This document shows, one piece after another, positions 9,451 through 13,146 of a DNA stretch of 64,000 bases. Position 1 is the first letter of the stretch, and every line of letters starts with the position of its first letter. Where the stretch lies: NCBI RefSeq assembly GCF_022829465.1, contig NZ_JAKSXZ010000058.1:62001-126000 (forward strand), in the 5' to 3' direction. The stretch comes from Methylobacterium sp. J-067 (GTDB taxonomy: Bacteria; Pseudomonadota; Alphaproteobacteria; Rhizobiales; Beijerinckiaceae). The position numbers were made by a program, and so were the translations under genes. Below the pieces are notes generated by a model. The model saw only the letters and a list, made by a program, of their open reading frames with translations, was not told where the DNA came from and did not search any database.

Positions 9451-11385
9451 TCAGGGCGCATCCGCGCCGAACAGGTCGCGCCAGCCCGTCCGCACGCGCC
9501 GCCCGTCCGCGATCCGCGCGGTGAAGCCGACCGCGTCGAAATGTTCGAGCACCGGCATCGTCATGTTGCGGCCGATCCCGGCCGCCTCGCGAAACCGCCC
9601 CACGGTGAGCAACCCCTCCGGATGCTCGCCGGCCACCGCCTCGGCGATCCGGGCGAGGTCGGCCAGCAGCGGCGGCGGGAGGTAATAGGCCTTCGAGACC
9701 CGCCGCAGCCAGCCGATGCGCCCGACCTTGTCGAGGAGGGGGCGCACGGCCTCCGGTTCCCGCCCGAGGCGCTCGGCCAGCAGATGCAGGCGCGGCTGGT
9801 CGCGCCCGGCCGCCTCCACCACCGCGCGGATCTCCGCGTAGAGCGCCGCGTCGGCGGGGGCGAGGCGCGCCTCGTGGCCGGGCCGGTGATGCAGGGCACC
9901 CCGCCGGGCGAGCGCCCCGGCGCGGGTGAGACCGTCGAGGACGAGGCGGGCGAGGGGCCGGTCGGCGGCGGACAGGTCGGCCGCGACCTCGTCCGCCGAG
10001 AGGCCGGGATTGTCGGGCTCGGCGGCGTGGCGCGCCTCGAACAGAGCGACGAGCCGCGCCTCCAGATCCGCGACCCGCGCGGCCGGGAAGGCGAGGCGCC
10101 GGCCTTCCGTATCCACGACCCGCGCGGCGTGCCCGGCAAGCAGCCCGTCGAGGGCCGGCGGCGGGATGTTGCGCAGGCGCGCGAAGCGCCCGACCTCGAG
10201 CCCCGCCGGCTCCGCATCGAGCAGCGCGGCGAGGGCGGCCCCGTCCTTGGGCTCGGCCAGGGCGGCGAGGACGGCCCGGCGGGCGGGGAGCCACGCCCCC
10301 CGGCGCGGCCCGTCGGCGTCGATCACCCGGCCGCCGCCGATCGTGCGCGCGGCGACGGCATCGCGCAGGACGAGGCGGTCGCCGGTGAGGGCATGGAGGG
10401 GCGCGTCGAGGGCGATCCGCGCAAAGGCCTCGCCCCCCGGCGGGATCGCGGGCGCCTCGGGGGCGAGGAGCACCCGGCCGGTCACGCCGGCCGCGCCGCA
10501 ATGGACCTGCACCGCCGCCCGGTGGCGCAGGGGCCGGGCCTCCCCCGGCAGCAGGCGGATCCGCGCGTCGAGGCGCGTCGCCGTGCCGGACAGGGCGGGG
10601 GCGAGCACCCACTCGCCCCGGTGGATGTCGTCGCGCGACAGGCGGGGGCCGGTGAGGTTGAGGGCGCAGCGCTCGCCGGCCCGGCCCTCCGCCGCGACCT
10701 CGCCCTGGGCATGGATGCCGCGCACCCGCGCCTCGATGCCCTTTGCCGACACCAGCACCCGGTCGCCGACCCGCACCGTACCGGCATGGACGGCCCCCGT
10801 CACCACGAGGCCTGCGCCCGGCAGGGTGAAGCAGCGGTCGATGGCGAGGCGGAAGCCCCGCTCGGATCCGGCCCCGCGCGGGGCCACCCCGTCGCCGGCC
10901 TTTTCCAGCCGCGCCAGCACCTCGGGAATGCCGGCGCCGGTCAGGGCGGAGCAGGGCAGGATCGGCGCCCCGGCGAGGCCGGTGCCGGCGAGGAGGGCGC
11001 GCACGTCCTCGGTGACGGCGGCGATCCGCTCCGGCCCGGCCCGGTCGGCCTTGGTGAGGGCGACGATCCCGCGGGAGAGGCCCAGCAGGTCGAGGATGGC
11101 GGCGTGCTCGCGGGTCTGGGGCATCACGCCGTCGTCGGCGGCCACCACGAGGATGGCGCAATCGACCCCCGTCGCCCCCGCCACCATGGTGCGCACCAGC
11201 CGCTCGTGGCCGGGCACGTCCACGAAGCCGAGGGAGAGGGCGCCCCGCCGGGCATAGGCGAAGCCGAGATCGAGGGTGATGCCCCGGGCCTTCTCCTCCG
11301 GCAGCCGGTCGGCATCGATTCCGGTCAGCGCCTTCACCAGCGCCGTCTTGCCGTGGTCGATATGCCCCGCCGTCGCGACGATCAT
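9451..11385 (-). CDS. selB: Selenocysteine-specific elongation factor SelB
   Basis: A 644-residue GTPase that carries selenocysteinyl-tRNA to in-frame UGA codons by binding the SECIS hairpin in the mRNA. The G-domain motifs are complete: GHIDHGKT (7-14), the RGITLDLGF switch (35-43), DVPGH (56-60) and TKAD (111-114). EF-Tu-like domains 2 and 3 follow, and the last ~250 residues form the winged-helix region that reads the SECIS. The ATG has AAAGAAGA upstream. The gene lies 64 bp downstream of a binding-protein gene that carries an in-frame UGA, on the same strand. selA, selD and tRNA-Sec are not seen in the window. Confidence 0.96.
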
Positions 11386-11449: not shown

Positions 11450-12940
11450 TCAGCCCTTGATCCGGGTCTCGGCCAGTTCCGACATGCAGGTGTCGTAGGG
11501 CGTGAACGCCACCCTGTCCGACACCGCGAACAGGGTGAAGGGCGAATACAGGAACAGGGCCTTGGCCTCGTCCTGCAGGTAGCGCTCCACCTCCCGCACC
11601 ACGCCCTCCTGCGCCTCCGGCTCTGCGGTGTGCAGGAGCTTGTCGTAGAGGGCGTCGAAGGCGGGATCCTCCGGGCCCTGGCGCAGGGTCGCGTCCTTCC
11701 CGAAGAACTCCCGGTGGACGCAGGCGACCGGATATTGCGGCGTCCAGTCGAAGTACCATTCGAGCTTGACGTCGAAATCCTCCGGCAGGTCGCCCCGGTC
11801 GCTGACGAACCGCGCCGAGAGGCCGATCTCCGCGAGGTTCCGGCCGATCGCCTCGACCACGCCCGTCCAGGCGGGCGACGCGACGAACACGAGCGCCCGG
11901 CCGCCGAGCCCCGCCTTCTCCAGCACCGCTTTCGCGGCCTGGGGATCGTGCGGGAACGGTTTCAGGCCGGGATCCGCGCCGTAGCGGCCGGGCTGGATGA
12001 AGGCCGGGATCACCGTGCCGTAGCCGTGCGCCCCCTGGTCGAGCACCGCCTGCCGGTCGATGGCGAGGTTGAGCGCCCTTCGCACCGCCGGGTCGCGCCA
12101 GGGCGAATCCGGCCGGTTCTCGTTGAAGACGCCCGTCAGGATCGTCTTGGCCTTCTTGGTCTGGATCTTCCCCTTGTCGCTCGCCGGGAAGGCCTTCGCC
12201 TCGTCCGGCGTCAGGTCGAACACCACGTCGACCCGGCCGTCACCGGCCGCCACCGACTTGATGCCCTCCGCCTTGCCGATGACGTTGTCGTAGACGATGC
12301 GGACGCTCGGCCTGCGGGCCGGGTTCCAGTAGGTCGGGTTGGGCTCCATCACGACCCTGTCGGAGCGGGAATCGATCAGCGAGACACCCTCGGTGAGCAC
12401 GAACGGGCCAGTCCCCCACGGACCGGGCGCGTCGATCACTCACCAATGGCCTTCGGCCGATCCCGTCTTCGGGTCGATGAAGCCCCACTCGTTCCAGAAC
12501 CGCGTCGAGGGCAGGTGCATGCCCCGCAGCTTCATCAAAGCGGCGGAATCGCCGCCGGGGAAGCGCATGCGGATCGTGCGGTCGTCCACCGCCTCGCAGG
12601 TCACGTCGCGGGCGAAGTTCAGGAAGGCCCCCGGCGGATGCGGGTTGGTCCATTCCTGCACCTTGTCGAAGCCGAGCTTGAACATGCCGGCATCGAAGCG
12701 CTCGCCATCCTGGTAGATGGCCTCGCGCATCGTGAGTTCGAGGGTCTCCCCATCGAGCCAGCGCCAGGATTCGGCGAGGCTCGGCTGGCCGATCCCCTCG
12801 TGATCGACCCGGTTGGCCTCCTCCATCGTGTTCCAGGTGATGGCGAGCCAGTTCACCGGCGACGGATCGACCACCGTCACCGTGTTGTGGGGGCCGAGGG
12901 CGCCGCCGCCTCCGGGATCCCCGGTCGCATGCGTGTCCAT
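11450..12940 (-). CDS. Candidate selenocysteine-containing peptide-type substrate-binding protein (in-frame UGA)
   Basis: The SBP_bac_5 reading frame is open on both sides of one TGA at 12440-12442. Read through, it gives 496 residues with the special codon at position 167, in the context [19 protein letters not shown]. The start has a near-perfect ribosome site (GGAGGAAGC-ATG). The N-part shows [17 protein letters not shown] and [19 protein letters not shown]; the C-part shows [16 protein letters not shown] and ends with a normal terminal domain, with no other stop or frameshift. No signal peptide is visible, which is odd for a periplasmic receptor. No permease or ATPase genes adjoin it. A hairpin with SECIS geometry follows the UGA, and selB is the next gene. 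I infer a selenoprotein; a nonsense-mutant pseudogene is the main alternative. Confidence 0.75.
12408..12426 (-). promoter_or_regulatory. SECIS-like hairpin after the in-frame UGA
   Basis: On the mRNA strand a 7-bp stem, CCGGUCC/GGACUGG (one G-U pair), closes a 5-nt loop GUGGG. The stem begins 13 nt and the loop 20 nt after the UGA. Bacterial SECIS elements have a short upper stem, a small apical loop with a G in its first two positions, and a loop about 16-37 nt from the UGA; all of these hold here. Pairing is read from the sequence; binding by SelB is inferred. Confidence 0.65.
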
Positions 12941-13146
12941 GCTTCCTCCTGTCATCGCCCGCATGGCGTGCGGGACGCCCGCCGGATTGGCGGTGCGCAA
13001 CCTATGATAGAGCGCAATCGGTCGCGCGCAATCGACCTTTCCGATCCGTTGGCGCAGGCCGCTTGCCAAGCCGGCTTCGGGCACCCAAACACCGTCGGGC
13101 CGCAGGGCACCCGCGTGGGGCAGGGGCCGGGCTGGCGGAGGCGGGG

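Follow-up and report, generated by a model that had tools for sequence, protein, structure and literature searches.

An inventory of 119 prokaryotic selenoprotein families (2026) has in its Table 1 no entry for PF00496 (SBP_bac_5), the profile of the family-5 solute-binding proteins (SBPs), and SaoB (NF040727) and SaoX (NF040735) are given as predicted selenoproteins named ABC transporter substrate-binding proteins (PMC13188914). With these two the protein described here shares its class and a predicted selenocysteine (Sec), but it differs from them in belonging to PF00496, in its motif W-U-V-I-D, the listed motifs being CUxxT or UxP, and in its linkage to selB; when compared with NCBIfam at E 0.001 it matched neither the SaoB nor the SaoX model. 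By its profile and Foldseek matches it resembles the PF00496 proteins of the NikA, AccA and AppA/DppA type, from which it is set apart by the lack of a recognisable signal peptide and of a dedicated permease or ATPase beside the gene. A further known system is present in the same genome, namely FdhA(Sec), which likewise shows a UGA with a downstream hairpin-forming sequence, although its UGA-CAC-GGY-CC with the loop AGUYU (by inspection) contrasts with the loop GUGGG of the SBP family. As to cysteine counterparts, the deep-Sep paper has it that every known selenoprotein now seems to possess a Cys homolog (PMC12013277); such homologs are usual for selenoproteins and not required. Searches of an open-access library, preprints excluded, brought up no title or abstract that describes the present family, which does not prove absence from print.

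In the present study a window, meaning the whole stretch of 64,000 nucleotides analysed, from a Methylobacterium genome of 5.36 Mb in 146 contigs was investigated with regard to an SBP gene interrupted by one TGA. The explanation that fits best as a whole, with a probability of roughly 0.85, would be a true selenoprotein gene with a specialised second SelB and a Sec-bearing family-5 SBP as its product. Computational support is strong for the decoding of TGA167 as Sec, in what would be a new selenoprotein family paired with its own SelB, and the selenoprotein reading itself appears well supported.

Reading frame, distribution and selection

The proposed selenoprotein CDS, a family-5 SBP of the C-form described below, is located at 11450..12940 on the minus strand (496 codons plus a TGA stop) and contains an in-frame TGA at codon 167 (12440..12442, minus), the proposed Sec167. 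The earlier note had reported a single TGA in an otherwise intact SBP_bac_5 frame of 496 codons, and the frame from 12940 to 11450 was confirmed; the near-perfect ribosome site it had named corresponds to a Shine-Dalgarno-like AGGAGG ahead of the ATG, read from the sequence at 12945..12950 (minus). The read-through product matched PF00496 at 3.5e-39 over residues 52-378 and with 135.4 bits against a gathering score of 32.4, both the profile query and the query P0001 ending in a residue 497 that stands for the terminal stop. This match runs across the TGA, which lies inside its span. Five further matches to the window protein were found in the source genome, at 28-31% identity and none with an internal stop.

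Full-length copies of the gene were gathered from 61 relatives, genome contigs, plasmids, 397 same-family genomes (matches at 1e-40 or better only) and hits of the SECIS covariance model, leaving out two broken copies (L054, L055) and the duplicates L007, L008, L009, L012, L143, L144 and L145. All 25, the copy of the window included, differ in DNA, carry TGA at the position of codon 167 and possess exactly one internal stop, and they extend down to about 50% identity. The assertion that there is no second lesion holds for all of these full-length copies, and the argument that a nonsense mutation would be a large coincidence is borne out by 25 distinct sequences sharing the codon. In the named records the family loci belong to Methylobacterium, Methylorubrum, Beijerinckiaceae MAGs and one Rhodospirillales MAG. 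Among the strains with the gene pair is M. fujisawaense DSM 5686. Two whole SBP-selB pairs occur in one genome of M. pseudosasicola (G021, contigs C56 and C61; L047 and L036), and another pair is carried by plasmid pNYY1_1 of M. radiotolerans (L142; 658 kb, typed mobilizable), for which the PLSDB table, incomplete and listing no pseudogenes, annotates selB and gives no feature over the TGA-bearing gene.

Seven of the 61 relatives have the SBP gene, and each of the seven belongs to the 18 genomes whose selB exceeds the family cut-off; the gene occurs in 0/43 of those lacking such a selB (p = 7e-5, uncorrected for kinship). No sense-codon ortholog, with Cys or any other residue, was detected in the genomes sampled (385 from the class, 398 from the phylum and, for matches at 1e-40 or better, 397 from the family), and a search of 72,556 plasmid records at 1e-30 brought up no Cys homolog; outside the family nothing exceeded 94.5 bits in the profile searches of the class and phylum samples or 99.8 bits in the single-protein search of the 61 relatives. 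The comparison of homologs with and without selB that the earlier note had proposed hence yielded TGA in every full-length copy and a gene confined, within these relatives, to selB-bearing genomes, and neither of the outcomes which it had set against its own proposal appeared in the genomes sampled, namely sense-codon orthologs or decayed homologs in species lacking selB.

Nei-Gojobori omega between the window copy and four others from Methylobacterium (L036, L047, L011, L048) amounted to 0.05-0.15 upstream and 0.18-0.28 downstream of the TGA, and median pn/ps over all pairs was 0.11 before and 0.37 after it (274 and 275 of 276 pairs with enough synonymous change), the maxima of 0.81 and 0.96 belonging to distant pairs in which synonymous sites look saturated. 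By these values the part behind the TGA is selected as protein, if less strictly than the part before it. Of the broken copies, L054 is disrupted after codon 190, and in L055 (6001-7077, Methylobacterium sp. 2A) a deletion brings selB codon ~352 directly behind SBP codon ~84, so that the first half of selB is gone as well; neither retains an intact SelB, and the fusion in L055 looks as if the SBP-selB pair decays as a unit.

The SECIS-like hairpin and the second SelB

Constraints for bacterial SECIS elements given in the inventory comprise a loop of 3-9 nt, a stem of 4-16 bp, a G in the first two loop positions, a spacing of 16-37 nt and an MFE of at most -7.5 (PMC13188914). A SECIS-like hairpin with a 7-bp stem and the loop GUGGG, 20 nt past the TGA, was recognised at 12408..12426 (minus) by pairing, by these published constraints and by a covariance model. 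In 25/25 copies the values lie inside these ranges (5-nt loop GUGGG, 7-8 bp, 20 nt, -8.5 to -13.6 kcal/mol). The test behind this count, a simplified, bulge-free version, is weak and unspecific: 175 of the 1119 TGAs of the window (15.6%) pass it too, 51 of them with equal or lower energy, and the FdhA of the source genome fails it.

Over the 48 bases from the TGA, 24 copies align without gaps and 35/48 columns are invariant. Every cell of the 7-bp stem (columns 17-23 with 29-35) is paired (100%); one-sided variation is seen in two of its pairs and a compensatory, two-sided change in none. A longer consensus structure, built on 21 copies, shows broken pairs in its lower part and, also there, a single two-sided change. 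Compared with shuffled sequences the hairpin of the window is not unusually stable (z -1.0; L050 -0.9, L049 -2.1, L051 -2.8). After the TGA the codons GGT, CCG and GGG are fixed in 24/24 copies, and ACT is used in 22/24 even though these genes use it for 4.4% of their Thr residues. Counting invariant residues of at least four-fold codon families, single-codon columns number 3/8 in the first 12 codons versus 2/75 elsewhere (Fisher p 0.0055, uncorrected for kinship), or 3/10 versus 13/119 without the four-fold restriction (p 0.11). On these alignments the SECIS-like hairpin is conserved, synonymous sites included.

A stronger test than the fit to SECIS constraints is a predictive search, for which the 48-base region starting at the TGA was made into a covariance model and 39 genome handles were scanned with it. 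It matched 15 family handles, representing 14 distinct genomes (G061 and G895, which gave identical contigs and positions, were counted as one), largely by construction; it also found L190 from the Rhodospirillales MAG, which was absent from the training rows and turned out to belong to the family and to carry the TGA. In 24 SelB-bearing genomes of the order outside the family it gave 0 matches. Absence of the gene was judged by the SECIS model in all 24 and by a protein search of the selB flanks in 19, in which no SBP match appeared. Within the window Rfam at gathering thresholds indicated no known element and ARAGORN no tRNA.

The SBP gene is followed on its own strand by a gene for a SelB (9451..11385, minus; TIGR00475 347.7 bits, cut-off 242.25), here called the cassette SelB, with its ATG at 11385 and 64 bp behind the SBP stop. 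The earlier note was right about this adjacency; the cell has more than one selB, the adjoining gene being a second, family-linked one. Its product shows PF25461 and PF09107 over and PF09106 just under the cut-off; in the PF09107 domain (SelB-wing_3; 9496..9615, minus; residues 607-646 of the 660-aa frame) R-[NH] replaces R-K. SBP-adjoining SelBs reach 345-365 bits; the SelB encoded elsewhere in those genomes scores 241-276. A tree built from 22 SelBs groups the 17 of family genomes in one clade (support 100/99), outside of which are placed the E. coli SelB, the FdhA-neighbouring SelB of L076 and, on a branch of 2.29, three members of the other Methylobacterium SelB. All 17 cassette SelBs have R-N or R-H in the winged-helix motif, whereas the five non-cassette SelBs of the tree set have R-K. 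At 19 selB-flank loci (L153-L171) a SelB frame was obtained in ten, six with R-K and four with no motif match.

The source genome possesses tRNA-Sec (73.5 bits), SelD, two SelBs and an FdhA with TGA; SelA was not found in the source-genome stretches examined; L050 and the two Methylorubrum do have it. Methylorubrum suomiense and M. salsuginis carry tRNA-Sec, SelA, SelB and SelD, with no TGA-bearing FdhA among the matches listed. Such an FdhA occurs in at least 11 of 16 genomes tested, and the 11 all have a non-cassette SelB, that of G061 being a fragment at a contig end and below the cut-off. Among the matches listed, no TGA-FdhA over the cut-off was seen in the family genomes G062, G063 and G064, which hold the cassette SelB only, or in the MAG G066 with both SelBs, and G001 has neither a TGA-bearing FdhA among the matches listed nor a non-cassette SelB. 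As the distribution of TGA-FdhA against SelB types fits it, a division of labour is suggested, in which the adjoining SelB would be a specialised second SelB for the SBP SECIS and another SelB of the same cell would serve formate dehydrogenase; from the sequences we infer separate SECIS elements for the two. That this amounts to two parallel UGA-to-Sec channels fed by one tRNA-Sec, an AGUYU-reading SelB for FdhA and a diverged SelB for GUGGG, the latter in a mobile two-gene cassette with no Cys form, is a tentative proposal to which we would give a little less than even odds.

An FdhA-profile match below the cut-off in G062 was rejected, as its TGA borders on, and precedes, the open frame of a molybdopterin oxidoreductase, without the U-H-x-P context. 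In addition to the main TGA-bearing FdhA, second FdhA-like genes with an internal TGA were seen in G026 (C1:523405-526407) and in G061 (C297:10427-13423), where a TAG is present too.

Protein fold, two forms and gene neighbourhood

The window protein matched PDB chains of NikA and AccA by profile (E ~1e-17 to 2e-20) and family-5 structures by Foldseek (E ~1e-25 to 1e-21, TM ~0.55-0.65, 15-23% identity), the latter with a weak AlphaFold model as query (pLDDT 64, pTM 0.58, pLDDT <50 at 160-180, around Sec). In five printed alignments to solved SBPs, three of them to near-identical AccA chains, the W-U-V segment faces a gap just before the GTGPF motif, and Sec therefore seems to lie in a family-specific insertion. 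W166 and U167 are invariant in a 13-row alignment and no cysteine is, which makes an internal selenenylsulfide unlikely; the sequences would agree better with exchange involving a partner protein, TlpA-like for example, or with a soft metal or a thiol as bound ligand. Sec would most likely be reactive or a soft-metal ligand, with thiol, disulfide, hydroperoxide or metal-chelate as putative targets.

A tree of 17 proteins is split into 4 and 13 (support 100/100). The four secreted-looking P-forms (L051, L053, L147, L190) have an apparent signal peptide at the N-terminus (by eye), are cysteine-free except for Sec from the NTV motif on, and are each encoded behind a gene for a TlpA-like CxPC thioredoxin, a gene order from which this dedicated thioredoxin may be supposed to keep the P-form Sec reduced. 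The cytosolic-looking C-forms comprise 21 copies, including those outside the tree, and are directly followed by the cassette selB in 21/21, the P-forms by selB in 0/4. By eye no recognisable signal peptide was present in the window protein or in other C-forms with printed N-termini, and the window form probably works in the cytoplasm. 'Binding protein of a transporter' is hence a putative label. Two MAG genomes hold one copy of each form, and in Methylorubrum the P-form is clustered with tRNA-Sec, selA and selB, in M. salsuginis also with selD on the same contig.

Judged by eye from the ORF lists, Dpp-type permease or ATPase genes are absent directly beside the SBP gene in the window, L148, L149 and L191; OppD/F-like ORFs lie ~6 kb away in L141 and a sugar-type ABC set ~4 kb away in L149, and no dedicated permease or ATPase was found next to either form. 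A MarR-type regulator, OhrR-like by eye, precedes the SBP gene in L036 (5319-5777), L038, L044, L045, L052 and L142 (8283-8750) and also the PhnDCE-sel operon of Methylorubrum (L138 9558-10052), the copies being 79-89% identical to that of L036; as functional context for the SBP gene these regulators are weak. A PhnD/PhnC/PhnE-like ABC importer, whose permease has no Pfam match, is situated directly before selB-selA in Methylorubrum (L138 10130-13249) and near tRNA-Sec in the source genome (contig C102, L073 232-1784 and L192). As the inventory states that prokaryotes have no known high-affinity transport system specific for selenium (PMC13188914), this importer is a candidate selenium transporter.

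Alternative explanations and meaning

That the TGA is a nonsense mutation in a pseudogene, or a sequencing error, is hardly credible. Broken copies do exist, and the incomplete PLSDB table, in which pseudogenes are not listed, shows no feature over the plasmid copy; yet an identical TGA recurs in every full-length copy across many assemblies and down to about 50% identity, no second stop accompanies it and within the genus omega is far under 1 before as well as after it, by which this explanation is largely refuted at the level of sequence. The TGA might also act as a working stop or be read through by an ordinary tRNA, yielding a 166-residue N-terminal product or a mixture of short and long proteins, in either case without selenium. 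The stronger conservation of the first half would agree with this, but the downstream half is under purifying selection and stop-free in 25/25 copies, the SBP domain runs across the TGA, a SECIS-like element follows it and the gene is restricted to selB-bearing genomes among the 61 relatives, and we regard such an outcome as very unlikely.

A less remote, though still unlikely, explanation sees in the UGA gene chiefly a selenium-status switch, that is an autoregulatory leader in which UGA decoding or SECIS-bound SelB sets the translation of selB. SECIS-based translational control in E. coli was reportedly described by Thanbichler and Bock in 2002, and selB lies directly downstream of all 21 C-forms; a protein of 496 codons, conserved along its length, far exceeds the needs of a leader, however, and none of the four secreted forms is directly followed by selB. 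Rather more weight, while remaining improbable, is given to a role in selenium acquisition, in which the ligand bound or delivered by the protein would be a selenium compound and not something else. In its favour, the gene is linked with selB, selA and tRNA-Sec in Methylorubrum and L050 and, in M. salsuginis, with selD as well, but selenoprotein genes may neighbour sel genes merely as a transferable set, no permease adjoins the SBP gene, and the PhnDCE-like importer beside selB is the better candidate importer.

The preferred reading is accordingly that of a selenoprotein gene in which TGA167 would be decoded as selenocysteine with the help of the SECIS hairpin, the product being a putative family-5 SBP with Sec in the insertion before GTGPF. 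Its basis is the conserved UGA, the SECIS-like hairpin, the linked SelB and the SBP family; together with the confinement to selB-bearing relatives, these support the candidate selenoprotein of the earlier note. Sec incorporation, a dedicated SelB and Sec as ligand or redox centre would follow as inferences.

The window protein appears to represent a previously unlisted kind of selenium-bearing binding protein, and within the genomes sampled the family would be an exception to the Cys-homolog rule of PMC12013277. If true, it adds a selenoprotein family that methods based on Cys/Sec pairs are built to miss, because such methods need Cys homologs. It also raises the question why selenium should be spent on a single residue of a binding fold, the secreted form of which is otherwise cysteine-free. 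Where one cell naturally contains SelB-SECIS pairs that seem to differ in specificity, SelB-SECIS recognition would become directly testable, and matched pairs of this kind could aid site-specific Sec insertion.
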